A stretch of 64,000 nucleotides of DNA, from contig NZ_CP135963.1 in assembly GCF_032460525.1 (NCBI RefSeq), forward strand, positions 3,844,001 through 3,908,000. Direction: 5' to 3'. The translations under genes were made by a program, and so were the position numbers. The DNA is from Geodermatophilus sp. DSM 44513 (GTDB taxonomy: Bacteria; Actinomycetota; Actinomycetes; Mycobacteriales; Geodermatophilaceae). The notes beneath the pieces were generated by a model. The model did no database searches. It was given only the letters and a program-made list of their open reading frames with translations, and was not told the origin of the DNA. Positions within the stretch are counted from its first letter, which is position 1. Each line of letters begins with the position of its first letter. Shown here in pieces: positions 17,617-61,060 of the stretch.

Positions 17617-19338
17617 TCAGCCGGCCAGCGCGTCGGCGGCGGCGGCCCGCAGCCGGACGGCGAGCCCGGCCTCGGCGCGCTGGTCGGTGCCGACGACGAC
17701 CACCTGCGGCCCGCCGGCGGCGACGGCGTCCCGGAGCCCGGCCGGCGAGGACACCCGCTGCGCCGGCCAGCCCAGGGCCTCGGCCACGGCGACCAGGTCC
17801 TGGCCGTGCGGCGTGCCGAAGACCCGCCGGTAGCCGGCCTCGTACCGGGGGTCGCCGGGCTCGAGCTGGGCGAAGATGCCGCCGCCGTCGTTGTCCGCCA
17901 CGACCAGGGTGAGGTCCGGCCGCGGCTCGCCCTCCCCCAGCAGCAGCCCCTGCAGGTCGTGCAGGAACGTCAGGTCACCGAGCAGCGCGAACGCCCGCCC
18001 TCCGCCGGATCCACCGCCATCATCGCGATGTCGGCGGTCCGCCCGCTGGTGCGCGCGGGCCGCGCCGACCGCGGTGGAGACCGTGCCGTCGATGCCGGCG
18101 ACCCCGCGGTTGGCCAGCACCGTGAGCCCCGCCCGCGGGAGCGCGAGCCGGTCGACGTCGCGCACCGGGGTCGACGAGCCGAGGACGAGGAGCGCGCCGT
18201 CGGGCAGGCCGGCGACCAGGTCGCGGGCGAGCCGGCCCGCGGTCAGCGCGGGCTCGGCGTCGAGGAGGCCGTCGACCGCCGTCCCGACCCGGTCGGCGGC
18301 GGCGCACCACGCGGCCCGCCAGGAGGGGTCGGCCGGGGCGCCGGGCGCCGGCAGCGTGCCCACCCGGGTCGTCGAGCGGCCGGCGTCGGGCCAGCGCGGG
18401 CTCGCCGAGACCGTCTCCACCCGGACGGCGGGGTCGGCGAGCAGCGCGGAGACCGGCCGGGACAGCGTCGGCCGCCCGACCACCAGCACCCGGTCGGGCC
18501 GGTGCGCGGCCAGCCAGTCCGGCACCCCCAGCAGCAGCGCGCCGCCCCGCACCGACCCGCCCCACGCCCCGCTGGAGGGCTCGGCGACGACCGGCCAGCC
18601 CTGCGCCCGCGCCAGCTCGCCCGCCGCCCGCCCCAGTCCCGGCGGGCCGTCCCCGACCACGACCAGGGTGCGCGCGGGTCCGCCGTCGGCCGGCCGCGCC
18701 GCGGCGGTGACCGCGGCGCCGGTCCACGGCGCGCCGTCCGGCCGCCCGGCCCAGGGCCCGTCCGGGGGGACGTCCGCGTCGTCGGGCAGCAGCGGCTCGC
18801 GCAGCGGCAGGTTGAGGTGCACCGGGCCCGGGTCGCCGGAGAGCGCGCCGCGGGCGACCAGCAGGACCTTGGCCACCAGGGAGCGCCAGTAGCGGTTCTG
18901 CGCCTCCTCGCGGCCGGCCTCGGGCACGCCGACGTCGACCGCGGCCCGCACCGCGCCGCCGTAGAGGCCCGGCTGGGCGATCGTCTGGTTGGCGCCGGTG
19001 TCCCGCAGCTCCGGGGGCCGGTCGGCGGTCAGCGCGAGCAGCGGCACGCCGGCGGCGTCGGCCTCCAGCACGGCGGCGTGCAGGTGCGCGGTCGCCGTCC
19101 CGGAGGTGGTGAGCACCGGCACCGGCCGCCCGGACGCCTTGGCCAGGCCGAGGGCGAGGAAGGCCGCCGTCCGCTCGTCGATGCGCACGTGCAGGGTCAG
19201 CCGGCCGGCCCGCTCGGCGGCGGCCAGCGCCAGCGCGACCGGCGCGGACCGGGAGCCGGGGGCGACGACGGCGTCGGTGACCCCGCCGCGGAGCAGCTCG
19301 TCGACGAGCACCCGGGCCAGCGCGGTGGAGGGGTTCAC
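17617..19338 (-). CDS. menD: 2-succinyl-5-enolpyruvyl-6-hydroxy-3-cyclohexene-1-carboxylate synthase
   Basis: Thiamine-diphosphate enzyme condensing isochorismate with 2-oxoglutarate, 573 residues. Visible signatures are VVAPGSRSAPVALALA at the N-terminus, the catalytic-Glu region RIDERTAAFLALGLA, and TTSGTATAHLHAAV. The ThDP/Mg motif runs from LLGDLTFLHDLQGL to ADNDGGGIF. A 17-residue polar insert rich in Arg, Asp and Gly lies at about residues 431-447 just before the ThDP motif. The GTG start overlaps the menC stop by four bases. Confidence 0.95.
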   Translation of the reverse strand: MNPSTALARVLVDELLRGGVTDAVVAPGSRSAPVALALAAAERAGRLTLHVRIDERTAAFLALGLAKASGRPVPVLTTSGTATAHLHAAVLEADAAGVPLLALTADRPPELRDTGANQTIAQPGLYGGAVRAAVDVGVPEAGREEAQNRYWRSLVAKVLLVARGALSGDPGPVHLNLPLREPLLPDDADVPPDGPWAGRPDGAPWTGAAVTAAARPADGGPARTLVVVGDGPPGLGRAAGELARAQGWPVVAEPSSGAWGGSVRGGALLLGVPDWLAAHRPDRVLVVGRPTLSRPVSALLADPAVRVETVSASPRWPDAGRSTTRVGTLPAPGAPADPSWRAAWCAAADRVGTAVDGLLDAEPALTAGRLARDLVAGLPDGALLVLGSSTPVRDVDRLALPRAGLTVLANRGVAGIDGTVSTAVGAARAHQRADRRHRDDGGGSGGGRAFALLGDLTFLHDLQGLLLGEGEPRPDLTLVVADNDGGGIFAQLEPGDPRYEAGYRRVFGTPHGQDLVAVAEALGWPAQRVSSPAGLRDAVAAGGPQVVVVGTDQRAEAGLAVRLRAAAADALAG

Positions 19339-20270
19339 CGGGACACCGCGGCCAGTCGGGCCCGCCAGCGCGCCGCGACGTCCGGCCCGGCCGCGACGTC
19401 GGCCAGCCGGTCGGGCACCACGGCGCGCACCGGCAGGGCGCCGTCCACCGGGAGCAGCGGGTCGCTCGTGACGTCGCCGGCCAGGAGCGCGACGGTGGCC
19501 AGTCCGCAGGCGAACGGCAGCTCGGGCAGCGCCGCGGCCAGCGCCACCCCGGCGGCGATGCCGACCGAGCTCTCCAGCGCCGAGGACACCACGCACGGCA
19601 GGCCGTGCGCCTGCGCCACCTCCAGGGCCGCGCGGACCCCACCGAGCGGCTGCACCTTGAGGACGACGACGTCGCAGGCCTCGCGCAGGTCCACCCGCAG
19701 CGGGTCGGCCGCGCGCCGGACCACCTCGTCGGCGGCGATGCGGACGTCGACCCGCCGGCGCAGCGCGGCCAGCTCGGCCAGGGACGCGCAGGGCTGCTCG
19801 GCGTACTCCAGGCCCACCCGGTCCAGCTCGCGGATCCGCGCGACCGCGGTGTCGACGTCCCAGGCCGCGTTCGCGTCGACCCGGATCGCGCCGGCCGGCC
19901 CGAGCGCGTCGCGCACCGCCTCGACGCGGGCGAGGTCGTCGGCGGGGGTCTGGCCGGGCTCGGCGACCTTGACCTTCGCCGTCCGACAGCCGGAGGCGGT
20001 CACGATCGCGTGCGCCCGCCCGGCGTCCACGGCCGGGACGGTCACGTTCACCGGCACGCTGGCGCGCAGCGGCGCCGGCCACCCCGTGCAGGCGGCCTCC
20101 ACCGCGGCGGCCCACCAGCGGCGGCTCTCCGCGACGTCGTAGTCCCAGAACGGGGAGAACTCCCCCCAGCCGGCCGGGCCCCGCACCAGCACGCCGTCGC
20201 GCACGTCGATGCCGCGGAACCGGGTCCGCATCGGCACCGACCAGACCCGCGCCCCGCCGGTGTCGATCAC
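19335..20270 (-). CDS. menC: o-Succinylbenzoate synthase
   Basis: Enolase-superfamily dehydratase making o-succinylbenzoate from the MenD/MenH product, 311 residues. The catalytic lysine appears in TAKVKVAEPG, metal ligands in IRVDANAAWD, LEYAEQPC and IAADEVVR, and the second lysine in VVVLKVQPLGG. The GTG start follows a TACGCT box by 7 bases on the minus strand (20283-20278), implying a leaderless transcript. It is translationally coupled to menD and divergent from menE. Confidence 0.93.
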   Translation of the reverse strand: MIDTGGARVWSVPMRTRFRGIDVRDGVLVRGPAGWGEFSPFWDYDVAESRRWWAAAVEAACTGWPAPLRASVPVNVTVPAVDAGRAHAIVTASGCRTAKVKVAEPGQTPADDLARVEAVRDALGPAGAIRVDANAAWDVDTAVARIRELDRVGLEYAEQPCASLAELAALRRRVDVRIAADEVVRRAADPLRVDLREACDVVVLKVQPLGGVRAALEVAQAHGLPCVVSSALESSVGIAAGVALAAALPELPFACGLATVALLAGDVTSDPLLPVDGALPVRAVVPDRLADVAAGPDVAARWRARLAAVSR

Positions 20271-20356
20271 GCCGCCAAGCGTATGCGGCCCTCCTGCAGG
20301 GCCCCGCCGCGAGCGTGCGAGTGGTGGGGGCAGGAGGGTCCTTATCCTCGGATCCC
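20271..20356. promoter_or_regulatory. Divergent menC/menE promoter region containing a GC hairpin repeat
   Basis: TACGCT (minus strand, 20283-20278) serves menC and TATCCT (plus strand, 20343-20348) lies 8 bases before the menE ATG. Between them, 20287-20341 is one copy of the dispersed hairpin family, with outer arms GGCCCTCCTGC and GCAGGAGGGTCC. The repeat therefore occupies the -35 regions of both promoters. Also visible is the core CCGCCGCGAGC shared with the copy at 57562-57618. Confidence 0.6.
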
Positions 20357-21475
20357 ATGCCCCGGCACCTCACCCCCGTGCCGGCGCCGGCCGACCCGCG
20401 CGCGCTGCTGCCGCACCTGCGCGCCGCCCTGGACGGCAGCGCACCCCTCGCGGTGCTGCCCGCCGGCCCGCCGGCCGCCGTCGACGCCGCCCTCGCCGCG
20501 CTGCGGCCCGGCGAGCCGCTGGAGGACGGCGCGGACCTCGTCGTCGTCACCTCCGGCTCGACCGGCGGCGGCCGCGGGGTGCTGCTGGCGGCCGGCGCGG
20601 TGCGGGCGTCCGGCGAGGCCACGCTGCGCCGCCTCGGCGGTCCCGGCGCCTGGCTGCTGGCCCTGCCGGTGTCGGCGGTCGCCGGCCTGCAGGTGCTCTG
20701 CCGGTCACTGCTCGCCGGCACCGACCCGACCGTCCTGGCGCCGGGCGAGCCGCTGGCCGCCGCGGTCGCCCGGATGCCCGCCGGCCGGCGGTACACCGCG
20801 CTGGTGCCCACCCAGCTGCGCCGCCACCTCGACGCCGAGCCCGCGGCGCTGCGGGCCTTCGACGCCGTCCTCGTCGGCGGCGCGGCCACCGACCCGGGCC
20901 TGCTGGCCCGCGCCCGCGGCGAGGACGTCGCTGTCGTGACCACCTACGGGATGACCGAGACCGCCGGCGGGTGCGTCTACGACGGCGTGCCCCTCGACGG
21001 GGTCGGCGTGCGCGTCACCGAGGGGGTCGAGCTGGCCGGGCCGACCCTGGCGCTGGGCTACCGGCTGGACCCCGGGGGCACGGCCGCCGCCTTCGCCGAC
21101 GGCTGGTTCCGCACCCGCGACGCCGGCTCGCTGGAGGACGGGCGGCTGACCGTGCACGGGCGGCTGGACGACGTCGTGGTCACCGGCGGGGTCAACGTCG
21201 CCCCGCAGGCCGTGGAGGGAGTGCTGCGCGAGCACCCCGACGTCGCCGACGCCGTCGTCTTCGGCCGGCCGGACGACGAGTGGGGCCAGCGGGTGGTCGC
21301 CGCGGTCGTCGCGGCACCGGGCGCGGAACCGGCCCTCGCCGAGCTGCGGCCGTGGGTGGCCGGGCGGCTGGGCGCGCCGGCCGCACCGCGGGAGCTGCAC
21401 CGCATCGCCGCCGTCCCCACCCTGCACACCGGCAAGCCCGACCGGCGCGCCGTCGCCGCCGCGGTGGCCCGTTGA
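20357..21475 (+). CDS. menE: o-Succinylbenzoate-CoA ligase
   Basis: AMP-forming ligase activating o-succinylbenzoate, 372 residues, in the compact size range of actinobacterial MenE. Motifs are the ATP loop VVVTSGSTGGGRGVLL, TTYGMTETAGGCVYDG, the aspartate of WFRTRDAGSLEDG, RLDDVVVTGGVNVAP and the C-terminal lysine in LHTGKPDRRA. The ATG at 20357 is 8 bases after TATCCT. It overlaps menA by one base (TGATG). Confidence 0.93.
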   Translation: MPRHLTPVPAPADPRALLPHLRAALDGSAPLAVLPAGPPAAVDAALAALRPGEPLEDGADLVVVTSGSTGGGRGVLLAAGAVRASGEATLRRLGGPGAWLLALPVSAVAGLQVLCRSLLAGTDPTVLAPGEPLAAAVARMPAGRRYTALVPTQLRRHLDAEPAALRAFDAVLVGGAATDPGLLARARGEDVAVVTTYGMTETAGGCVYDGVPLDGVGVRVTEGVELAGPTLALGYRLDPGGTAAAFADGWFRTRDAGSLEDGRLTVHGRLDDVVVTGGVNVAPQAVEGVLREHPDVADAVVFGRPDDEWGQRVVAAVVAAPGAEPALAELRPWVAGRLGAPAAPRELHRIAAVPTLHTGKPDRRAVAAAVAR

Positions 21476-22350
21476 TGGCCACCCCGGCCCAGTGGCTGGC
21501 CGGCGCCCGGCCCCGCACGCTGCCCGCCGCGCTCGCCCCGGTGCTCGTGGGCAGCGGGGCCGCCGCGGCCCTCGACGGCTTCCGGCCGCTGCCCGCCGCG
21601 CTGGCCCTGGTGGTCGCGCTGGCCCTGCAGGTGGCGGTCAACTACGCCAACGACCACTCCGACGGGGTGCGCGGCACCGACGCGACCCGGGTGGGGCCGA
21701 TGCGGCTGGTCGGCTCGGGCGCCGCGACCCCGCGGCAGGTGCTCGGCGCGGCGCTGGCCGCCTTCGCCGTCGCCGCGCTCGCCGGGCTGGCGCTGGCCGC
21801 GCTGTCCAGCTGGTGGCTGGTCGCGGTCGGCGCGGCCTGCATCGCGGCCGCCTGGACCTACACCGGCGGCCCGCTGCCCTACGGCTACCGGGCGCTGGGC
21901 GAGGTGTTCGTCTTCGTCTTCTTCGGCCTGGTCGCCGTGGTGGGGACGGCGTTCGTGCAGACCGGCTCGGTCGACGGGCTGGCGGTGGCGGCGTCGGTCC
22001 CGGTCGGCCTGCTGTCGGTGGCGCTGCTGGTGGTCAACAACCTGCGCGACATCGAGGGCGACGCCGCGGTCGGCAAGCGGACGCTGGCCGTGCTGCTCGG
22101 CGACCGCGGCACCCGGGTCGCCTTCGCGGGCCTGCCGGCCGCGGCCTTCGCGGTGGTCGCCGCGATCGGCCTGGCCCGGCCGTGGGCGCTGCTGGCGCTG
22201 CTCGCCGTCCCGCTGGCGGTGCCGCCGGTGCGCACCGTGCTCACCGGTGGCCGCGGGCCGGCACTGGTCGCGGCGCTGCAGGGCACCGGGCTGCTCACCC
22301 TGGCCACCGGCGTGCTGCTCGGTGCCGGGCTGGCCCTCAGCGGCTGGTGA
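21475..22350 (+). CDS. menA: 1,4-Dihydroxy-2-naphthoate polyprenyltransferase
   Basis: UbiA-family integral membrane prenyltransferase that attaches the isoprenoid chain to DHNA, 291 residues with about eight to nine helices. The prenyl-diphosphate/Mg motifs are visible as NYANDHSDGVRGTD and NNLRDIEGDAAVGKRTLA. The start overlaps the menE stop. No menB or menH is present in the window, so these must be elsewhere. Confidence 0.95.
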   Translation: MATPAQWLAGARPRTLPAALAPVLVGSGAAAALDGFRPLPAALALVVALALQVAVNYANDHSDGVRGTDATRVGPMRLVGSGAATPRQVLGAALAAFAVAALAGLALAALSSWWLVAVGAACIAAAWTYTGGPLPYGYRALGEVFVFVFFGLVAVVGTAFVQTGSVDGLAVAASVPVGLLSVALLVVNNLRDIEGDAAVGKRTLAVLLGDRGTRVAFAGLPAAAFAVVAAIGLARPWALLALLAVPLAVPPVRTVLTGGRGPALVAALQGTGLLTLATGVLLGAGLALSGW

Positions 22351-22406: not shown

Positions 22407-23948
22407 TCAGGCGTCGGCGAGGGCGGCGGCGACCAGCTCCGGCTCGGTGTAGGACCGCAGCTCGGCGGCGTACCGCTCGCACTGCAGCAGCAGGCCGGGC
22501 ACGAAGGCGCCGGCGGCGACCAGGTCCCCGGTCGCCGCGGCGGCGGCCAGGGCGGCGCAGGTGCCGGCCACCGCGGTGGCCCCCATGCTCTCGCTGGAGG
22601 TGCGCAGCGACTCCGCGGCGGCCTGCACCGCCCGCGGCTCCCGCCGGCGCAGCGAGGCCTGGATGCGCAGCCGCCGTCCGGGCAGTTCGCCCAGGTAGGT
22701 GCCGACCAGCTCGGCCGCGGCCCGGGCGTCGCCGTCGACCCGCCCGACGACCGCCCGCAGCGCCGCGGGCACCGGCGAGCCGGCGCCCTCCCGGGGCAGC
22801 ACCCGGTCGCCGCGGTCGATCGCGGCGGCCGCCCGGGCCAGCGCGGCCGACAGCGACCCCAGGTCCACCGGCTTGGTCAGCACCTCGTCCATGCCCGCGG
22901 CCGCGCACGCCTCCCGAGCGTCGGCCGTGGCGTCGGCGGTCACCGCGATCACCGGCAGGTAGCGCCGGTGCGGCGACAGCGCGGCGCTGATCCGCCGGGT
23001 GGCCTCGCAGCCGTCGACGTCGGGCAGGTGGCGGTCCATCAGCACCACGTCGACGTCGTCCTGCAGCGCCGCCTGGACGCCGGCCTCCCCGGTGGCCACC
23101 GCGGTGAGCCGGTGGCCCAGCCGGGCCAGCTGGCGCTCGGTGAGCAGCCGGTTGGTGGCGTTGTCCTCGACGAGCAGCACGTGCAGCGGGCGCACCGCGC
23201 CACCGGCGGCGACCTCGGGTGCCGCCACGGGCTCGGTGACCGGCGCCGTGCCGGCGGCCGACACCGGCAGGTTCACCTCGACGTGCGCGCCGGCCGCGCT
23301 GGGCAGCACCCGCAGGGTGCCGTCCAGCAGCGCGGTGAGCTGCTGCACGAGCAGCAGCCCCAGCCCGGCGGGGGCCGCGGCGGCTCCCGGGCCGGCCAGC
23401 GCCTGCCGGACCGGCGCCGGCAGGCCGACCCCGGCGTCGCTGACGGTGATCCTGACCCGGTCGGTCCGCGGCCCGTCCGGGGTGACGGACAGGACGACGG
23501 GGGCCCGGCCGTGCACGACGGCGTTGGTGACCAGCTCGGTCACCAACCGGTGCAGCGCGGCGAGGTCGGTCTCGAGGTGGGCGGGGGCGTCGGGTGCCAC
23601 GACCACGGACACCGGCCGGGCGCTCTCCGCGGCCAGCTCGGCGACGAAGACCGCCAGGTGCACCCGTGCCGGGCGCGGCCGGTGCTGCCCGCCGAGCAGC
23701 CGCACCAGCCAGAGCACGCGGTCGCTGCCGGTCAGCAGGTCCTCGGCGCTGTCGACGAGCTGGTCGTGCAGGCGGCGCTGGTCGGGCTGCAGGGGGCTCA
23801 TGCCCAACAGCTCCAGGAAGCCCAGCAGCGAGTGCAGCGGGGTCCGGACGGCCTGACTCAGCGCCCGCTCGACCGTGGGCGCACCGGCCGGGTCGGCCGC
23901 CGCGGCCGCGCGGCCGCCGACGGGGCCGCTCCCCACCGGGCCGGTCAC
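22407..23948 (-). CDS. Degenerate hybrid histidine kinase: pseudo-DHp, HATPase, receiver, Hpt-like domain
   Basis: 513 residues, soluble. Domain order: a DHp-like helix (about 25-90), HATPase (about 125-228) with N box ELVTNAVVH and G1 box DAGVGLPA, an intact receiver (255-375, phospho-acceptor D305 in VVLMDRHLP, lysine in LTKPVD), and a C-terminal Hpt-like helical domain (about 395-490). The phospho-accepting histidine is missing from both places where it should be: the DHp reads LSQAVRTPL (Q32 for His) and the Hpt motif reads AAESLRTSS (E446 for His). The GTG overlaps the stop of the upstream kinase by four bases. Probably an effector or decoy receiver rather than a kinase; function unknown. 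Confidence 0.8.
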   Translation of the reverse strand: MTGPVGSGPVGGRAAAAADPAGAPTVERALSQAVRTPLHSLLGFLELLGMSPLQPDQRRLHDQLVDSAEDLLTGSDRVLWLVRLLGGQHRPRPARVHLAVFVAELAAESARPVSVVVAPDAPAHLETDLAALHRLVTELVTNAVVHGRAPVVLSVTPDGPRTDRVRITVSDAGVGLPAPVRQALAGPGAAAAPAGLGLLLVQQLTALLDGTLRVLPSAAGAHVEVNLPVSAAGTAPVTEPVAAPEVAAGGAVRPLHVLLVEDNATNRLLTERQLARLGHRLTAVATGEAGVQAALQDDVDVVLMDRHLPDVDGCEATRRISAALSPHRRYLPVIAVTADATADAREACAAAGMDEVLTKPVDLGSLSAALARAAAAIDRGDRVLPREGAGSPVPAALRAVVGRVDGDARAAAELVGTYLGELPGRRLRIQASLRRREPRAVQAAAESLRTSSESMGATAVAGTCAALAAAAATGDLVAAGAFVPGLLLQCERYAAELRSYTEPELVAAALADA

Positions 23949-26035
23949 GACCCCGCCAGGTGCTCGTCGACGACGGCCAGCAGCTGGCGCACGTCGATGG
24001 GCTTGGACAGGAAGCGGGTGGCGCCGGCCTCCAGCATCCGGCGCTCGATGCCCGGGCTGAGGTCGGCGGTCACCACCACCACCGGCACCCCGGCCAGCCG
24101 GGTGTCCTCGCTGCCGCGGAGCCGGGCGAGGACCTCCTCCCCGGGCACGCCGGGCAGGTGCAGGTCGAGCAGCACCAGGTCGGGCCGCACCGCCGCGGCG
24201 GCGGGCAGCGCCTCCGCGCCGTCGGCCACGACCTCCAGGTGCACGTGCGGCCGGCGGGCGAGGACCTTGCGGACCAGCGTGGTGTTGGACGGGTTGTCCT
24301 CCACGTAGAGCACGGTGTGGGTGAGCACGGCGTCGACCACCGGGGCCGCCGGCACGACCAGCGGCTCGGCGGCGGGCAGGTCCACCCAGAAGGTCGACCC
24401 GCGGCCCGGCTCGCTCAGCACGCCGATGACGCCCGACTGGGCCTCCACCAGCGTCTTGGTCAGCGACAGCCCGACCCCGGTGCCCTCGATCCCGCTGTTC
24501 TCCGCACCCAGCCGGTCGAACGGCACGAACGCGTCGTCCAGCCGGTCGGCGGGGATGCCCTGCCCGGTGTCGGTGACCGCCAGCCGCAGCCGCTGCGGGT
24601 CGTCCGGGGACGGCCCCCACGCGACCGTGACGTCCCCGCCGTCGCGGTTGTACTTCACCGCGTTGGACAGCAGGTTGACCAGCACCTGCTTGAGCCGCTG
24701 CCGGTCGGCGACGACCACCGCCCCGTCGAGCCGGGTCGGGGTGCGCAGCGAGATCCCCCGCGGCGCCGCGGCGGTCCGGACCAGGTCCAGGCTCTCCGCG
24801 ACCACCTCGCGCACGGCCACCGGCTCCAGCGACAGGCTCAGCCGGCCGGACTCGATGCGGACCACGTCGAGCACCTCGTTGATCAGGTCCAGCAGGTGCG
24901 TGCCGGCCCGCATGATCTGGCCGAGGTTCTCCGCGTCCTCACCGGTGAGGTCGCCGAGCTCGAGCAGCTGCCCGAACCCGAGGATGGCGTTGAGCGGGGT
25001 GCGCAGCTCGTGCGACATCCGCGAGAGGAACTCGGACTTGGCGCGGGAGAGCCGCTGCGCCTCGTCCCGGGCCGTCTCGGCGTCGGCCAGCGCGGCCTCG
25101 GCCTGGGCGAGGGCGGCCCGCACCTGCTGCTCGGCCTCCACCCGGACGGTCACGTCGTGCAGGATGCCGCGGAGCCCGACGAGGTCGCCGGCGTCGTCGA
25201 ACACCGGGCGACCCCGGACCGACATCCACCGCGTGCTGCCGTCGGGCACCAGGAAGCGCACCTCGCACGCCGTCTCCGGGCCCGCGGTGTCCGCGCCGCC
25301 GAGCCCCGCGGCGACCTGCGCCTCGGCGATCGGCCGGTCGTCGGGGTGCACCCGGTCCAGCAGCCCCCAGCCGGCCATGTCCTCGAGGCGGACGCCGGTC
25401 AGCTCGGTGAAGGCCCGGTTGACGTAGGTGAAGTGACCGGCCGCGTCGGTCTCCACGACCAGGTCGCCGAGGTCGTCGATCAGCGAGCGGTACCGGGTCT
25501 CCGAGGCCACGACCTCGGCGGAGCGGGCCGCCTCCCGGGCCCGGCCGCGGGCCAGCTCCTGCTCGCGGGACATGAGGGCGCCGGCGAACTCGAGCACGGC
25601 GAGCTGGTCGTCGGTGAACTCGCGGGGCTCCCGGGTGTAGACGCACACCGTCCCGGTCGGCCACCCGGCGGTGTCCCACAGCGGTGTCGTGGCGTACCCG
25701 CGCACGCCGAGCCACTCACGGACCGGCAGGTCGGCGAACGGCCCCTCGACGAGGTCGGCCCACACCGACGGGGCCTCCCCGCGCAGCACGCGGTCGCAGA
25801 AGGTCTCCGCGGCCGGCACCCGCATCCCGACCTGCAGGCCCAGCCCGAGCGCGTCGTCCACGCCCAGCAGCTCGACCTGGCTGCCGCGGATGCCCTGGAC
25901 GAGCACCACGTCGGCGTGCAGCGAGGTGCGGACGAGCCGGGCGACGTCCGCCGCCGCCTGGCCAACCGAGTCGTAGGAGCGGGACAGCAGCTGGTGCACC
26001 ACCGGGCGCAGCTGCGGGGACAGGAGCTTCTCCAT
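23945..26035 (-). CDS. GAF-PAS hybrid sensor histidine kinase with C-terminal receiver
   Basis: 696 residues with no signal peptide or membrane segment, so a cytoplasmic sensor. GAF domain about 20-155, a linker helix, PAS about 175-300 (ETDAAGHFTYVNRAF, RVHPDD), a coiled coil 300-335, HisKA with H342 in MSHELRTPLNAILGF, HATPase with N458 and DTGQGIP, then a receiver with D624 in LVLLDLHLPG. It is translationally coupled to the degenerate kinase downstream and divergent from the oxoamine synthase fusion. The ligand of the GAF/PAS domains cannot be read from the sequence. GAF-PAS kinases with receivers are common in this family of bacteria. Confidence 0.88.
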   Translation of the reverse strand: MEKLLSPQLRPVVHQLLSRSYDSVGQAAADVARLVRTSLHADVVLVQGIRGSQVELLGVDDALGLGLQVGMRVPAAETFCDRVLRGEAPSVWADLVEGPFADLPVREWLGVRGYATTPLWDTAGWPTGTVCVYTREPREFTDDQLAVLEFAGALMSREQELARGRAREAARSAEVVASETRYRSLIDDLGDLVVETDAAGHFTYVNRAFTELTGVRLEDMAGWGLLDRVHPDDRPIAEAQVAAGLGGADTAGPETACEVRFLVPDGSTRWMSVRGRPVFDDAGDLVGLRGILHDVTVRVEAEQQVRAALAQAEAALADAETARDEAQRLSRAKSEFLSRMSHELRTPLNAILGFGQLLELGDLTGEDAENLGQIMRAGTHLLDLINEVLDVVRIESGRLSLSLEPVAVREVVAESLDLVRTAAAPRGISLRTPTRLDGAVVVADRQRLKQVLVNLLSNAVKYNRDGGDVTVAWGPSPDDPQRLRLAVTDTGQGIPADRLDDAFVPFDRLGAENSGIEGTGVGLSLTKTLVEAQSGVIGVLSEPGRGSTFWVDLPAAEPLVVPAAPVVDAVLTHTVLYVEDNPSNTTLVRKVLARRPHVHLEVVADGAEALPAAAAVRPDLVLLDLHLPGVPGEEVLARLRGSEDTRLAGVPVVVVTADLSPGIERRMLEAGATRFLSKPIDVRQLLAVVDEHLAGS

Positions 26036-26191
26036 GACCGCCGCATCGGCGGGGCAACCGCGCTGCTGCAGCGACCTGCCCCTCCCGGGTGAGACGCCGC
26101 CGACCGGGACGTCGTGCCGGCCCCGGCCTGCCGATGACACCGGCGTCCCCGCGCTGCCGGTTGCACGGGGCCGGAGGACACGGAGGCCCCC

Positions 26192-28657
26192 ATGGCGACG
26201 ACGGAGCAGCTGCTGGACGCGGTGGACGAGGTGGTCTCCGACGGCGTCCGCCGCGGGATGCTGCACAACCACGTGGAGGACGCCGAGCTCGACGGGCGGC
26301 ACGTGACCATCGACGGGCGCCGGCTGGTCAACTTCGGGTCCTGCTCCTACCTCGGGCTGGAGACCCACCCCGCGCTCAAGGCCGCCGTCCGGGACGCGGT
26401 GGACCGCTACGGGACGCAGTTCTCCTCCTCCCGCGTCTACGCCTCCGCACCGCTGTACCGGGAGGCCGAGGCCGCGCTGGCCGGCCTGTTCGGCCGGCCG
26501 ACGATCCTCACGCCGTCCACCACCCTGGGTCACCTCGCGGCGATGCCGGCGCTGATCGGGGACCGGGACGTGCTGCTGCTGGACCACCAGGTGCACAACT
26601 CGGTGCAGACGGCGGCCAAGCTGGTGCAGGCCGGTGGCGCGCGGGTGGAGCTGCTGCCGCACAACGACCTGCGCACCCTGGACCGGCGGCTGGCGCAGTA
26701 CCGGCGGACGCACCGGCGGGTCTGGTACGCCGCCGACGGGCTGTACTCGATGTACGCCGACTTCCTCCCCGCCGCCGGGCTGGACGACCTCGCCGCCCGG
26801 CACCCGCACCTGTGGCTGTACGTGGACGACGCCCACGCGGCGTCCTGGACCGGCCGGCACGGGCGCGGGTACGCCCTGGAGCAGCTGTCCCCGGGCACCC
26901 TGGCCCGCACCGTGGTGGCGCTGTCGCTGAACAAGTCCTTCGCCGCGGCCGGGGGCGCGCTCACCTTCCCGGACGCGGCGGCCCACCGGCGGGTCTCCCA
27001 CGTCGGCGGCCCGCTGATCTTCTCCGGCCCGGTGCAGCCGCCCATGCTCGGCGCCGTGCTGGCCTCGGCCCGGCTGCACGCCACCCCCGAGGTGGCCGCC
27101 CGCCAGGAGCTGCTGCGCTCCCGGATCCGGCTGTTCAACCGGCTGGCCGCCGACGCCGGCCTGCCGGTGGTGTCGGCCTCGGAGGCCCCCATCCGGTGCG
27201 TCGGCGCGGGCGTCACCGCGGTCGCCTACCGGCTCACCGAGCTGCTGCGCGGCTCGGGCTTCCACGTCAACACCGCCTCCTTCCCCGCCGTCCCCGCCAA
27301 GCGCAGCGGCGCCCGGCTCACGCTCACCGCCCACCACACCGAGGACGACGTCGCCGGGCTGGTGGCCGCACTCGCCGAGCACCTGCCCCGGGCGATCGCC
27401 GACGAGGGGGCCACGGTGGAGGACCTGTACCGGGCCTTCGCCCGGCAGCTGGGCACCCGGCCGGCACTCCCGCCGCGGGGCGCGCCGGGCCCGGCGCCGG
27501 CGCTGCGGCTGGAGCGGGCCCGCTCCGTCGACGCACTCGACACCGCGGAGTGGGACCGGCTGCTCGGGGCGACGGCGTTCTCCGGCAGCGCGGCCCTGCG
27601 GACCCAGGAGGCCGTGTTCGAGGCCGGCGGCACGGGCGCGGCCGGGCAGACCGAGGACGCCTGGGACTTCCACTACTGGCTGGTGCGCGGCCCGTCGGGG
27701 CGGCCGGTGGCGGCGACCTTCGGCACCACCGCGCTGTGGAAGGAGGACATGCTCTCCCCCGCGCACGTCTCCGCGGAGGTGGAGCGCCTCCGGGTGCGCG
27801 ACGCCGACCCGCACTTCCTCACCTCGCCGGTGCTGGGCCTGGGGTCGCTGCTCACCCAGGGCGACCACCTGTGGCTGGACCGGACCGCGGACTGGCGGGG
27901 CGCGCTGCGGCTGGTGCTGCAGGCGGCCCGCGCCGAGGAGGACGCCGCCGGGGCGTCCGGCCTGGTGCTGCGCGACCTGCCCGACGGCGACGACGAGCTG
28001 CACGAGTTCCTGCTCGGCGAGGGGTTCTTCCGGGTCCCGCTGTGGGACACCTGGGTGCGCGACCTGGACTTCGCCGACGACGCCGGGTTCCTGGCCCAGC
28101 TGGACCGCAAGCGCCGGCAGCACCAGCGCCGCCACGTGCTGCCGTGGGAGGAGCGCTACCGGGTCGAGGTGGTCACCGGGGGCAGCCCCGCGGCGGCCGC
28201 GGTCGCCCCGGCGCAGCGCGACCGGCTCTACGCGATGTACCGCGCCGTCCACGCCCGCGCCCTCGAGCTCAACGTGTTCCCGCTGCCGCGCCGGGTCGTC
28301 GACGCCGTCCTGGACTCACCGGGCTGGGAGACGGTGCTGCTGCACCTGCCGGAGGAGCCCGACGGCCCGGTGGCCTTCGGCACCCTGCTGGTCACCGGGG
28401 ACAGCGTCGCCACGGTGTTCCTCGGGCTCGACGACCGGTTCGTCGCCAGCCACCGCAGCTACCAGCAGCTGCTGTGGCAGGCGCTGCGGGCCGGACAGCG
28501 GCACGGGGCGCGGCAGGTGCTGTACGGCATGAGCGCGGACCTGCAGAAGTCCCGCTTCGGCGCCCGTCGCGAGCGGCGCTGGGGGTACGTGCAGGCGGGT
28601 GAGACGTTCGGCGCCGACGTCCTCGCGCAGATCGCCCGCAGCGTGGTCCCGGGGTGA
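26192..28657 (+). CDS. Fusion of alpha-oxoamine synthase family PLP enzyme with a BioF2/FemAB-like acyltransferase
   Basis: 821 residues. Residues 40-405 are an alpha-oxoamine synthase (BioF/KBL/SPT family): CSYLGLETHP, the PLP-stacking H135 in DHQVHNSVQ, DGLYSMYADFLP, D213 and H215 in YVDDAHAASWTGRHGRG and the Schiff-base lysine K248 in SLNKSFAAAGG. The class therefore condenses an amino acid with an acyl-CoA and loses CO2. After a Pro/Gly linker (about 420-440), residues 445-815 resemble the BioF2-like acetyltransferase/FemAB family, with the basic helix DRKRRQHQRRHV and the closing LYGMSADLQKSRFG. The ATG follows GGAGG. It stands alone, divergent from the hybrid kinase pair, with no biotin or sphingolipid genes nearby. 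Substrates unknown. Confidence 0.82.
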   Translation: MATTEQLLDAVDEVVSDGVRRGMLHNHVEDAELDGRHVTIDGRRLVNFGSCSYLGLETHPALKAAVRDAVDRYGTQFSSSRVYASAPLYREAEAALAGLFGRPTILTPSTTLGHLAAMPALIGDRDVLLLDHQVHNSVQTAAKLVQAGGARVELLPHNDLRTLDRRLAQYRRTHRRVWYAADGLYSMYADFLPAAGLDDLAARHPHLWLYVDDAHAASWTGRHGRGYALEQLSPGTLARTVVALSLNKSFAAAGGALTFPDAAAHRRVSHVGGPLIFSGPVQPPMLGAVLASARLHATPEVAARQELLRSRIRLFNRLAADAGLPVVSASEAPIRCVGAGVTAVAYRLTELLRGSGFHVNTASFPAVPAKRSGARLTLTAHHTEDDVAGLVAALAEHLPRAIADEGATVEDLYRAFARQLGTRPALPPRGAPGPAPALRLERARSVDALDTAEWDRLLGATAFSGSAALRTQEAVFEAGGTGAAGQTEDAWDFHYWLVRGPSGRPVAATFGTTALWKEDMLSPAHVSAEVERLRVRDADPHFLTSPVLGLGSLLTQGDHLWLDRTADWRGALRLVLQAARAEEDAAGASGLVLRDLPDGDDELHEFLLGEGFFRVPLWDTWVRDLDFADDAGFLAQLDRKRRQHQRRHVLPWEERYRVEVVTGGSPAAAAVAPAQRDRLYAMYRAVHARALELNVFPLPRRVVDAVLDSPGWETVLLHLPEEPDGPVAFGTLLVTGDSVATVFLGLDDRFVASHRSYQQLLWQALRAGQRHGARQVLYGMSADLQKSRFGARRERRWGYVQAGETFGADVLAQIARSVVPG

Positions 28658-28672: not shown

Positions 28673-28984
28673 TCAGTCGCCGGCGAGCCGGGCCTCGCGC
28701 TGCTCCTTGGCCTGCCGGCGGGCGACGCTGCGCGCGGCCAGGGCCTCGGTCAGCCGCTCGCGCGAGGGGCGCAGCAGCAGGTAGGACACCGGCATCGACA
28801 GCAGCAGGCCGAACAGCGCGCCGGACCACAGGTCCAGGCCGAGGGTCCACAGCAGCACGACCAGCGCCGCGGCGATCCCCAGCCGGCCCACCGTGTAGAC
28901 CGCCAGCCACGGCGCCACCCGCGGCGGGCTCGCCGGCCCTCCCGTCGGCGCGCCCGGCACCGTCGCGTCAGCCCTCTCCGCCAT
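28673..28984 (-). CDS. Small two-helix membrane protein, DUF4229 type
   Basis: 103 residues. Two adjacent hydrophobic segments (about 33-50 and 53-72: LGIAAALVVLLWTLGLDLW and LFGLLLSMPVSYLLL) are followed by a charged amphipathic tail rich in Arg, Glu and Ala. This matches the small actinobacterial DUF4229 family, whose function is unknown. It overlaps the end of the Lrp gene by 17 bases, so the two are co-transcribed. In mycobacteria a similar protein lies near the men genes. Confidence 0.75.
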   Translation of the reverse strand: MAERADATVPGAPTGGPASPPRVAPWLAVYTVGRLGIAAALVVLLWTLGLDLWSGALFGLLLSMPVSYLLLRPSRERLTEALAARSVARRQAKEQREARLAGD

Positions 28985-30154: not shown

Positions 30155-31084
30155 CTACTCGAGCCCGCCGTAGCTGTGCAGGCCGGTCGAGACCATGTTC
30201 ACGTACAGCAGGTTGAACACCATGACGCCCAGGCCGACGACGTTGACCCAGGCCGCGGGGCGACCCCGCCAGCCGGCGGTCGTCCGGGCGTGCAGGTACC
30301 CGGCGTAGACGACCCACGCGATGAACGCCCAGGTCTCCTTGGGGTCCCAGCCCCAGTAGCGGCCCCACGCGCTCTCCGCCCAGACGGCGCCGGCGATGAC
30401 GGCGAAGGTCCAGACGGGGAAGCCGAAGACGGCGGTGCGGTGGGCGACCCGGTCGAGGGTGACCGCGCTCGGCAGCCGGGACAGCACCGACCTGTCGGCC
30501 TCCGCGCCACGGGCGTCGGTGCGCAGCTTGAGCAGGTACAGCACGCTGGCGATGCCGCTGACGAAGAAGACGCCGAAGCCCAGGATGGCCGTGGACACGT
30601 GGACGGCCAGCCAGCTGGAGCGCAGCGCGGCGACCAGCGGCCCGGTCTCGGTGTAGAGGAACAGGCCGGTGGCGACCAGCGCGAGCACGACCGGCGCGAG
30701 CACGAAGGCGCCGATGTCGCGGACCACCGGGACGCGGACGGCGAGCACCAGGTAGGCCACCACGCCGACCAGGACGACGGCCGTGGCGAACTCGTACATG
30801 TTGCCCCAGGGCAACCGGTCGGCGGCCATCCCGCGGGTGAGGAGCACCCCGGTGTGCACGACCGCGCCCAGGACGGTGAACGCCAGGCCGACCACGCCCC
30901 AGCGGTCGGTGCGCGCCGGCGCGGCCGGGGCCTCGGCGACCCCGCCGGCCGCGACCAGCTCGCGCACCGGGCGCCGGCCGAACGCCAGCTGCGCGGAGAA
31001 CGCGACGACGGCGACCGAGTAGAGCGCGACGGCGACGGAGAACAGCGTGTCCGACAGCTGCGCCAGCGACGGGTCAACGGTCAC
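30155..31084 (-). CDS. ccsB: Cytochrome c biogenesis protein CcsB (CcsA/ResC type)
   Basis: Heme-handling membrane subunit of System II cytochrome c maturation, 309 residues with about eight helices. The tryptophan-rich WWD signature is WGRYWGWDPKETWAFIAW, and flanking histidines occur in GAVVHTGVLL, WLAVHVSTAI and LHARTT. It works with ResB to export heme and ligate it to apocytochromes outside the membrane. It overlaps resB by 11 bases and ends the resA-ccdA-resB-ccsB set. Confidence 0.95.
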   Translation of the reverse strand: MTVDPSLAQLSDTLFSVAVALYSVAVVAFSAQLAFGRRPVRELVAAGGVAEAPAAPARTDRWGVVGLAFTVLGAVVHTGVLLTRGMAADRLPWGNMYEFATAVVLVGVVAYLVLAVRVPVVRDIGAFVLAPVVLALVATGLFLYTETGPLVAALRSSWLAVHVSTAILGFGVFFVSGIASVLYLLKLRTDARGAEADRSVLSRLPSAVTLDRVAHRTAVFGFPVWTFAVIAGAVWAESAWGRYWGWDPKETWAFIAWVVYAGYLHARTTAGWRGRPAAWVNVVGLGVMVFNLLYVNMVSTGLHSYGGLE

Positions 31085-59150: not shown

Positions 59151-59831
59151 TCAGGCCTCCAGCTTGTAGCCCAGCCCGCGCACGGTCACCAGGTACTTGG
59201 GGTTGGCCGGGTCGGGTTCGATCTTGGCCCGCAGCCGCTTGACGTGGACGTCGAGGGTCTTGGTGTCGCCGACGTAGTCCGACCCCCACACCCGGTCGAT
59301 GAGCTGGACGCGGGTGAGCACCCGGCCGGCGTTGCGCAGCAGGAGTTCGAGCAGGTCGAACTCCTTGAGCGGCAGCGCGATCGGCTCGCCGTCGACCGAG
59401 ACGACGTGCCGCTCGACGTCCATGCGCACCGGGCCGGCCTCCAGGGCCGACTCCGCCGGCGCCTCGACGTCACCGCGGCGGCGCAGCACCGCACGGATGC
59501 GAGCGACCAGCTCGCGGGCCGAGTACGGCTTGGTCACGTAGTCGTCGGCGCCGAGCTCCAGGCCGACCACCTTGTCGACCTCGGCGTCCTTGGCGGTCAG
59601 CATGATGATCGGCACGCCGCTGCGGGAGCGCAGGGCGCGGCAAACCTCGGTCCCGGGCAGACCCGGCAGCATGAGGTCCAGCAGGACGATGTCGGCACCA
59701 CCCCGGTCGAACTCCGCGAGGGCCTCCGGCCCGGTGCCGGCGACGACCGGGTCGAACCCCTCCTTCCGCAGCATGTAGGACAGCGCGTCGGAGAAGGACT
59801 CCTCGTCCTCCACGACCAGCACTCGGGTCAT
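59151..59831 (-). CDS. regX3: Response regulator RegX3 (OmpR family)
   Basis: 226 residues. The receiver has D52 in DIVLLDLMLPG and the lysine in YVTKPYSARELVARI. The winged-helix DNA-binding domain includes LPLKEFDLLELLLRNAGRVL and VDVHVKRLRAKIE-like sequence near the end. It is coupled to senX3 by a four-base overlap. In mycobacteria and streptomycetes the orthologue (RegX3/PhoP) activates phosphate-starvation genes. A PHO-box-like repeat lies upstream of the divergent phoU. Confidence 0.93.
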   Translation of the reverse strand: MTRVLVVEDEESFSDALSYMLRKEGFDPVVAGTGPEALAEFDRGGADIVLLDLMLPGLPGTEVCRALRSRSGVPIIMLTAKDAEVDKVVGLELGADDYVTKPYSARELVARIRAVLRRRGDVEAPAESALEAGPVRMDVERHVVSVDGEPIALPLKEFDLLELLLRNAGRVLTRVQLIDRVWGSDYVGDTKTLDVHVKRLRAKIEPDPANPKYLVTVRGLGYKLEA

Positions 59832-61060
59832 GACCGTCCCTTCGGGGCGTGTGCGGCGGTCGGGCCGCCGGCGAGGTCGTGCTCGTCCGGCGCGTCGCCG
59901 GGAGGTGGAGGGGTCGCAGCGCGGTCGGCCAGCGGGATCCGCAGGGTGAAGGTGGAGCCGAGCCCCTCCTCGCTCCACACGCTCACCGAGCCGCCGTGGT
60001 TCGTGGCGACGTGCTTCACGATCGCCAGCCCGAGTCCGGTGCCACCGGTGCGGCTGGCCCGGGACTGGTCGACCCGGTAGAAGCGCTCGAAGACGCGCGA
60101 CCGGTCCTCGCGGGGGATGCCGATGCCGCTGTCGGTGACGGTGATCTCCACGAGCCCGGCGCGGGCGCGGGCGCCGACGGCGATGCGGGTGTGCTCGGGG
60201 CTGTAGGCGACGGCGTTGGCCAGCAGATTGGTGACCGCGGTGGCCAGCTGCGACTCCACGCCCTTCACGACCAGCCCCCGCTCGCCGCCGGCGACGATGG
60301 CGATCTGCTTGGCGGTCGCGGCCAGCTTGGTGCGGTCGACCGCCTCGGCGATGACCGTGTCCACCTCGAGCGGCACGAGCTCCGGCAGCGGCTCACCACC
60401 CTGCAGGCGGGACAGGTCGATGAGCTCGCGGACCAGGCGGGCCAGCCGGTCGGCCTCGTGGGTCATCCGGGAGGCGAACCGGCGCACGGTCGGGGGGTCG
60501 TCGGCGGCGTCCTCCACCGCCTCGGCGAGCAGCGACAGGGCTCCCACCGGCGTCTTGAGCTCGTGCCCGACGTTGGCGACGAAGTCGCGGCGGACCGCCT
60601 CGACCCGCCGGGCCTCGGTCACGTCCTGCAGCACCAGCGCCACCGGGCCGGGTGACCCGGCAGCGCGCTCGAGGCGGACGCCGAGCACCCCGAGCTGGCG
60701 CGGACCCCCGCCGACGACCGAGCTCGGCAGGCTCACCTCGGCGCGGCGGCGCCCGCCGTCGCGCACCGTGCGGGCCAGCTCCAGCAGCTCGGGGACCAGC
60801 AGCCGGGTCTCGCGCACGATGCCCAGGGAGCGTGCCGCCGGGTTGGCCAGCAGGACGACGTCACCGGGGTCGAGCAGGACGACGGCGGGGTCGATGAGGT
60901 CGAGCAGCCGCCGGGCCAGGACCGCCTCGGGGGCCGCGCCGTCGGCCGGAGGGGCGTCCTGGGGGTCGGGACGCCGGGACCGGTGCAGCAGCGCGGCGAC
61001 CAGGACGCCACCGACCAGGCCGACGACCAGGCCGGCCAGCAGGGCGACCGACGAGCTCAC
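59828..61060 (-). CDS. senX3: Sensor histidine kinase SenX3 (PhoR-like)
   Basis: 410 residues. One N-terminal hydrophobic segment (VALLAGLVVGLVGGVLVAALL), then a PAS-like domain (about 45-160), HisKA with the histidine in FVANVGHELKTPVGALSLL, and HATPase with NLLANAVAYS, DSGIGIP and GTGLGLAIVKHV. The C-terminal 35 residues are low complexity. It signals to RegX3 in response to phosphate supply, with PhoU (encoded divergently) as the usual negative link to the Pst transporter. Confidence 0.92.
   Translation of the reverse strand: MSSSVALLAGLVVGLVGGVLVAALLHRSRRPDPQDAPPADGAAPEAVLARRLLDLIDPAVVLLDPGDVVLLANPAARSLGIVRETRLLVPELLELARTVRDGGRRRAEVSLPSSVVGGGPRQLGVLGVRLERAAGSPGPVALVLQDVTEARRVEAVRRDFVANVGHELKTPVGALSLLAEAVEDAADDPPTVRRFASRMTHEADRLARLVRELIDLSRLQGGEPLPELVPLEVDTVIAEAVDRTKLAATAKQIAIVAGGERGLVVKGVESQLATAVTNLLANAVAYSPEHTRIAVGARARAGLVEITVTDSGIGIPREDRSRVFERFYRVDQSRASRTGGTGLGLAIVKHVATNHGGSVSVWSEEGLGSTFTLRIPLADRAATPPPPGDAPDEHDLAGGPTAAHAPKGRS

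Follow-up and report, generated by a model that had tools for sequence, protein, structure and literature searches.

A fused alpha-oxoamine synthase and acyltransferase-like protein beside changing signalling genes in Geodermatophilus and other bacteria

The fusion gene and its divergent kinase pair

The window, here meaning the whole stretch of 64,000 nucleotides from Geodermatophilus sp. DSM 44513 that was analysed, contains an intact gene for an 821-residue protein in which an alpha-oxoamine synthase (AOS) is joined to an acyltransferase-like domain (the 'fusion'). It diverges across 156 bases from a pair of genes related to histidine kinases, HK1 and HK2 (Table 1); the coordinates, the intact fusion and its divergence from the kinase pair were all confirmed as given in a preliminary description, made from the sequence alone.

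Table 1. Coordinates within the window of the fusion, the kinase pair and their borders
Feature	Position	Strand	Description
Fusion	26192..28657	+	821 aa; ATG start; synthase ~1-410, linker ~421-438, acyltransferase-like ~439-817
HK1	23945..26035	-	696 aa hybrid kinase: GAF (marginal)-PAS-HisKA-HATPase-REC; His342 and Asp624 present
HK2	22407..23948	-	513 aa: degenerate HisKA (Gln32)-HATPase-REC (Asp305)-degenerate Hpt (Glu446); GTGA overlap with HK1
Intergenic region	26036..26191	.	156 bp between divergent HK1 and fusion
UbiA prenyltransferase gene (read as menA)	21475..22350	+	Flank of the site
DUF4229 gene	28673..28984	-	Opposite border of the site

The G-C content of the fusion by codon position was 0.78/0.51/0.99. 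At least 1163 homologs were present in the candidate list, the best 120 of which covered 92-100% of the fusion, while the AlphaFold2 model of all 821 residues had a mean predicted local distance difference test score of 90.6; the fusion is therefore not a chance open reading frame (ORF). Its synthase half carries H135, D212, H215 and K248 as the pyridoxal 5'-phosphate (PLP) residues, and thereby has the lysine, aspartate, two histidines and fold that define the AOS superfamily. The preliminary description had identified H135, H215 and K248 correctly but placed the aspartate at D213; since Alb29, a synthase of solved structure, reads D-E-A-H opposite D212-D213-A-H215, the PLP aspartate was assigned to D212, one position away. 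H135, D212, D213, H215 and K248 were invariant in all 61 aligned fusion relatives.

The closest NCBIfam family was PRK07505 (BioF-like, unnamed), a model of 405 positions that covers the synthase part only, yet the fusion scored 252 bits against its cut-off of 342. Identity with the CqsA/LqsA autoinducer synthases (PRK07179; 61 bits against a cut-off of 428), with the 8-amino-7-oxononanoate synthase (AONS) BioF (170 against 426) or with serine palmitoyltransferases (SPT; 137, 130 and 95 against 640, 500 and 670) was rejected. Alb29, an AOS of albogrisin synthesis, was the best match both among PDB sequences and by Foldseek (28-30% identity), but it differs in being a single domain, in having leucine for serine at the selectivity position, and in belonging to a natural-product pathway. 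AOS enzymes produce alpha-aminoketones by condensing acyl thioesters with amino acids (PMC11906848). The selectivity position of ThAOS corresponds to Ser79 in the window fusion, serine being the residue of SPT and AONS also; it was leucine in the eight syntenic Bacteroidota loci described below, and tyrosine in L170, L171, L175 and L176. Because this residue varies between fusion clades, the amino acid substrate may differ by clade.

By its own sequence, the C-terminal domain of the window fusion matched no Pfam family and no PDB entry. Its GNAT (PF13480) or FemAB_like (PF04339) label was taken from matches in several relatives, PF04339 being matched in L012; hence the BioF2/FemAB-like acyltransferase of the preliminary description holds through these relatives and not through the window domain itself. 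K517, D519 and K786 of this domain were invariant in the 61 aligned rows. The best 50 matches in each fold list for the 821-residue model all concerned the synthase half, and the acyltransferase half was therefore barely probed by structure. Relatives consisting of the synthase alone were observed in Dactylosporangium and Nocardia (L010, L011 and L014), with a methyltransferase gene nearby in L010 and L011, and P450 and acyl-CoA dehydrogenase genes in L014. A split arrangement, with the acyltransferase encoded separately, was rejected for both genera and for L193, where the fetched flanks contained no called GNAT gene.

For HK1, the PAS, HisKA, HATPase and REC domains exceeded their Pfam cut-offs and GAF fell slightly under (28.2 against 28.6 bits). 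No membrane segment was predicted in either kinase (highest 19-residue hydropathy 1.57 in HK1 and 1.67 in HK2), so that the cytoplasmic GAF-PAS hybrid kinase proposed previously was upheld in its PAS domain, hybrid layout and lack of membrane segments, and was marginal only in its GAF domain. For HK2, HisKA, HATPase and REC exceeded their cut-offs and Hpt did not (22.3 against 24.6 bits). A phospho-acceptor histidine is expected both in the HisKA H-box and in the Hpt motif; in HK2 these sites are occupied by Gln32 (H-box SQAVRTP) and Glu446 respectively, in the window and in its ortholog at L002 alike. These losses are common to orthologs at ~69% identity and are therefore no sequencing slip, and without both histidines HK2 offers no canonical relay step. 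Consequently, of the two-protein phosphorelay (His-Asp-His-Asp) that had been proposed, His342 and Asp624 of HK1 and the HK2 receiver were found, while the HisKA and Hpt histidines of HK2 were not. Judging by these motifs, HK1 could act as a kinase equipped with a receiver domain, and HK2 would be at most a receiver or regulatory partner. A shared promoter signal was rejected, since no long block was common to the 156-bp gap and the corresponding gap in L002.

Distribution of the fusion and its neighbours

The fusion was identified in 9 of 112 Geodermatophilaceae genomes, although the copy in G034 was seen only as a fragment. In the window, both kinases are positioned between the UbiA (menA) gene and the fusion. 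The HK2-HK1-fusion triple recurs in G062 at another place (L002), unlinked to the menA site, with identities to the window of 69%, 69% and 84% respectively; the triple is thus intact in both genomes, at sites unlinked to each other. The menA site lacks the fusion in G062, as it does in G040, G043, G048 and G056. HK2 was found in 2 of the 112 genomes (E 1e-50), adjoining the fusion both times. A search for HK1 in 13 genomes (E 1e-60) produced matches in only two of ten Geodermatophilaceae (the window genome, G000, and G062); among Motilibacter, G853 had one copy beside the fusion and another elsewhere, G868 had a copy elsewhere only, and none was found in G900 at this threshold. The kinase beside the fusion in G853 (L192) has a PAS-HisKA-HATPase-REC layout and diverges from the fusion across a gap of 170 bp; it resembled HK1 at 55% identity over residues 162-694 in the genome search, and at 50% over 166-694 by BLASTP. 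A search of the Motilibacter order found the fusion in 2 of 5 genomes, both already known, and a draw of 394 Actinomycetes genomes contained three full fusions, that of the window included, with the synthase part in one more.

Beyond this phylum, the whole protein has relatives that are 31-45% identical. Of 329 Myxococcota genomes, 30 contained one at E 1e-100, with a few of these copies truncated or reduced to the synthase; among 345 Bacteroidota genomes nine had a relative, which in one consists of the synthase alone and in another is broken in two. The fusion family is old, spanning Actinomycetota, Myxococcota and Bacteroidota. A tree of 57 rows (quick method, with SH-aLRT, an approximate likelihood ratio test) placed the actinobacterial and the Bacteroidota sequences in one clade each and those of Myxococcota in several; the window fusion was sister to L002, and the neighbours of the fusion tracked clades.

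Signalling genes were counted at the 30 Myxococcota loci, of 32, where the fusion was called (L164 and L175 were missed by the gene caller, a simple custom script applied to the fetched loci). A signalling gene (histidine kinase, REC, Hpt, GGDEF or H-NOX-like domain) lay within two genes of the fusion at 21 of the 30. For comparison, the count was 12 of 234 for control genes, taken from arbitrary stretches in 20 of these genomes, and 0 of 30 for genes that stand five or more positions away from the fusion at these loci. The controls were somewhat disadvantaged because the signalling hidden Markov models had been seeded from fusion neighbours and iterated on fusion loci, and they came from contig starts or otherwise arbitrary positions rather than from a random draw. 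L009 and L015 share the gene row Hpt, REC-GGDEF, fusion and hybrid kinase, and their stand-alone Hpt proteins exceeded the Pfam cut-off; L015 additionally has a methyltransferase-like gene ahead of its kinase.

Many Myxococcota neighbours carry a sensor domain that matched nothing in Pfam or NCBIfam, and which was modelled as an H-NOX/V4R/Bet3 fold. The sensor model (A2) was made from 16 such domains, all beside fusions, so that their top scores arise by construction; a protein search with the domain returned two matches, which were uninformative. Haem-binding H-NOX proteins need a conserved proximal histidine. No histidine was invariant across the 16 rows (the commonest column held it in six), which does not support a haem-binding H-NOX identity. 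Other neighbours were varied: a cytochrome c-like gene (PF13442) adjoins the fusion in L165, L169 and L172, together with a kinase containing the H-NOX-like domain; an acyl-AMP ligase with a carrier-protein (phosphopantetheine) domain adjoins it in L166, L167, L168 and L178, which resemble a lipid or natural-product operon; and L170 and L171 have a FAD-oxidoreductase-like neighbour (by clustering and by Pfam, respectively), with a methyltransferase-like gene also in L170.

Among Bacteroidota, DUF7793 adjoined the fusion in all nine loci read and an AraC-type gene followed it in eight; a tenth match (G482), consisting of the synthase part only, was left out of this count. The AraC-type gene of L184 had a PAS match under the Pfam cut-off, and L012 has two DUF7793 genes followed by a hybrid kinase. 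Of 29 Bacteroidota genomes searched for DUF7793, eight encode it, namely those whose fusion is either complete or broken, and it was absent from all 14 control genomes. Ten of the 12 copies found adjoin a fusion, another adjoins a synthase remnant (L252), and the last, in G113, adjoins neither. The remnant (169 aa; 5172-5681 in L252) has both DUF7793 and AraC-type genes beside it, and is apparently a decayed second fusion locus in G513.

Interpretation of the fusion and its partners

Given the architecture, conservation and neighbourhood observed, the fusion was tentatively interpreted, at somewhat short of even confidence, as a bifunctional N-acyl-alpha-aminoketone synthase, providing the enzyme of a synthase-sensor module that swaps its partners. 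The PLP domain would carry out the condensation of amino acid and acyl thioester, the GNAT/FemAB-like domain would N-acylate the resulting alpha-aminoketone, and an N-acyl-aminoketone would be released. In Caulobacter, the separate enzymes Spt and bCerS perform these as successive cytoplasmic steps of ceramide synthesis (PMC11087976). The Caulobacter system, with AasR and AcpR (PMC11324152, PMC11087976), is similar in the order of AOS and N-acyltransferase, and in the acyl-ligase and carrier domain found beside some fusion clades; however, the fusion is one polypeptide, whereas cerS is in a different operon from spt. The sensor half would be HK1, with HK2, in Geodermatophilus and an HK1-like kinase in Motilibacter, while in Myxococcota it may comprise kinases and other proteins with the H-NOX/V4R-like domain, receivers and GGDEF proteins, and in Bacteroidota DUF7793 with the AraC-type regulator. 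As these partners recur and are non-homologous, it is suggested that the cell reads the level of the fusion product, or of its precursor. In the window, HK1 would phosphorylate its own receiver, and perhaps that of HK2 as well; the output and the direction of control are inferred.

The preliminary description had compared the locus with CqsA-CqsS, in which, as in LqsA-LqsS-LqsR, a PLP synthase gene adjoins a histidine kinase gene, with a receiver protein also in Lqs (PMC3376566); the first product of CqsA is likewise an aminoketone, Am-CAI-1 (PMC3376566). The window synthase, however, is fused to a second domain and falls far below the family cut-off, and CqsS has a six-helix membrane sensor, in contrast to the kinases here. 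The comparison therefore stands as an analogy, not as membership. The functional link that accompanied it was partly supported, in a form that is broader (a family-wide linkage) and weaker (without CqsA membership or a canonical HK2 relay, and with the kinases absent from most close relatives). Independent occurrence of fusion and kinase pair had been named as the outcome that would break this link, and it was seen in one direction: the fusion often lacks the kinases, but HK2 was never found without the fusion in the 112 genomes. Adjacency looks more than coincidental, because HK2 occurs only with the fusion, the triple exists at two places, and signalling or regulator genes also flank the fusion in one Motilibacter genome, in Myxococcota and in Bacteroidota.

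Several observations weigh against a synthase-sensor module. At 6 of 8 readable Geodermatophilaceae loci (L003-L006, L008 and L188) the UbiA gene is directly upstream of the fusion and the kinases are absent, and M. deserti (L007, the same place as G868) has the fusion without an HK1-like kinase beside it. The N-terminal parts of HK1 and the L192 kinase could not be aligned, and in both Motilibacter genomes the kinase away from the fusion is nearer to the HK1 core (61-62% against 55%). Across Actinomycetota the contrast was weak: a signalling gene was near the fusion at 3 of 10 loci, near 3 of 43 genes in the distant flanks and near 8 of 73 controls. Nine of the 30 Myxococcota loci had no signalling gene within two genes, and several of these had biosynthetic neighbours. 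By two-component labels alone, Bacteroidota scored 0 of 9; the eight main loci there share long synteny and are therefore not independent, and one G113 copy of DUF7793 (L253) lies away from any fusion. Lastly, a Pfam scan detected no DNA-binding domain in HK1 or HK2.

That last observation bears equally on an alternative which was judged possible, and nearly as likely as a sensed product, namely that the fusion product is a membrane lipid with a structural or stress role (a ceramide-like amide), and that the neighbouring kinase, AraC or GGDEF system does no more than time its synthesis, by sensing redox, gas or membrane state. The acyl-AMP ligase with carrier domain, FAD-oxidoreductase and methyltransferase-like neighbours of some clades argue for such a lipid, as do the cytochrome c-like genes adjoining the fusion, its patchy distribution and the modelled H-NOX fold of the Myxococcota sensor; against it are the missing DNA-binding output of both kinases and the lack of an invariant histidine for haem. 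A modified lipid had also been guessed at in the preliminary description, and for the chemistry at least this is favoured, some clades resembling lipid biosynthesis.

It is improbable that the C-terminal domain has some other role, either acting on another substrate (FemAB-like aminoacyl transfer, or a protein) or being structural or regulatory, which would leave a plain aminoketone as product, as for CqsA. The missing Pfam and PDB matches of the window domain, the FemAB_like match in L012 and the synthase-only relatives with no GNAT gene called in their flanks are consistent with this, but the domain is retained in three phyla with its three invariant residues, and AOS and acyltransferase catalyse consecutive steps in ceramide synthesis (PMC11087976). 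Most improbable is that HK1 and HK2 landed beside the fusion by chance, without joint function: in Blastococcus and its relatives the fusion occupies that menA site by itself, and hybrid kinases are common, but HK2 is found only where the fusion is, an HK1-like kinase takes the same divergent position in Motilibacter, and the recurrence of signalling genes in Myxococcota exceeds the control.

If the synthase-sensor module is real, a widespread enzyme family, separate from the alpha-hydroxyketone systems of proteobacteria, joins two consecutive ceramide-like steps in one protein and ties them to sensing; it would provide testable ligands for orphan kinases and for the H-NOX/V4R-like sensor domain, and a genomic handle for DUF7793. 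The fusion family and its sensors hint at an undescribed lipid-like signal, or a sensed lipid. A wider proposal, which we consider unlikely, is that N-acyl-alpha-aminoketones constitute a class of communication or self-sensing in which one bifunctional enzyme serves at least four unrelated sensor types across the three phyla (PAS hybrid kinases, H-NOX/V4R-like kinases, DUF7793 with AraC-type regulators, and receiver-GGDEF/Hpt relays), with one selectivity residue per clade tuning the product. Listings and abstract openings from mainly openly accessible journal literature revealed no publication that deals with the fusion family, with DUF7793 or with these genes as a set.

Other features of the window and genome

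Beside the kinases, positions 17617-22350 contain genes for a thiamine pyrophosphate enzyme and for enolase-like, AMP-binding and UbiA proteins, read as a menaquinone cluster (menD, menC, menE and menA), and a cytochrome c assembly gene is located at 30155-31084. At 59151-61060, a receiver-like gene (59151-59831) and an adjacent ORF were both matched by the L002 hybrid kinase, and are perhaps a further two-component pair. Approximately 451 kb from the fusion on the same contig (G000:C1; L247, 2471-4540), a GGDEF protein showed a weak match to the H-NOX-like sensor (E 6.9e-12), and a similar protein is present in G062 (L248).

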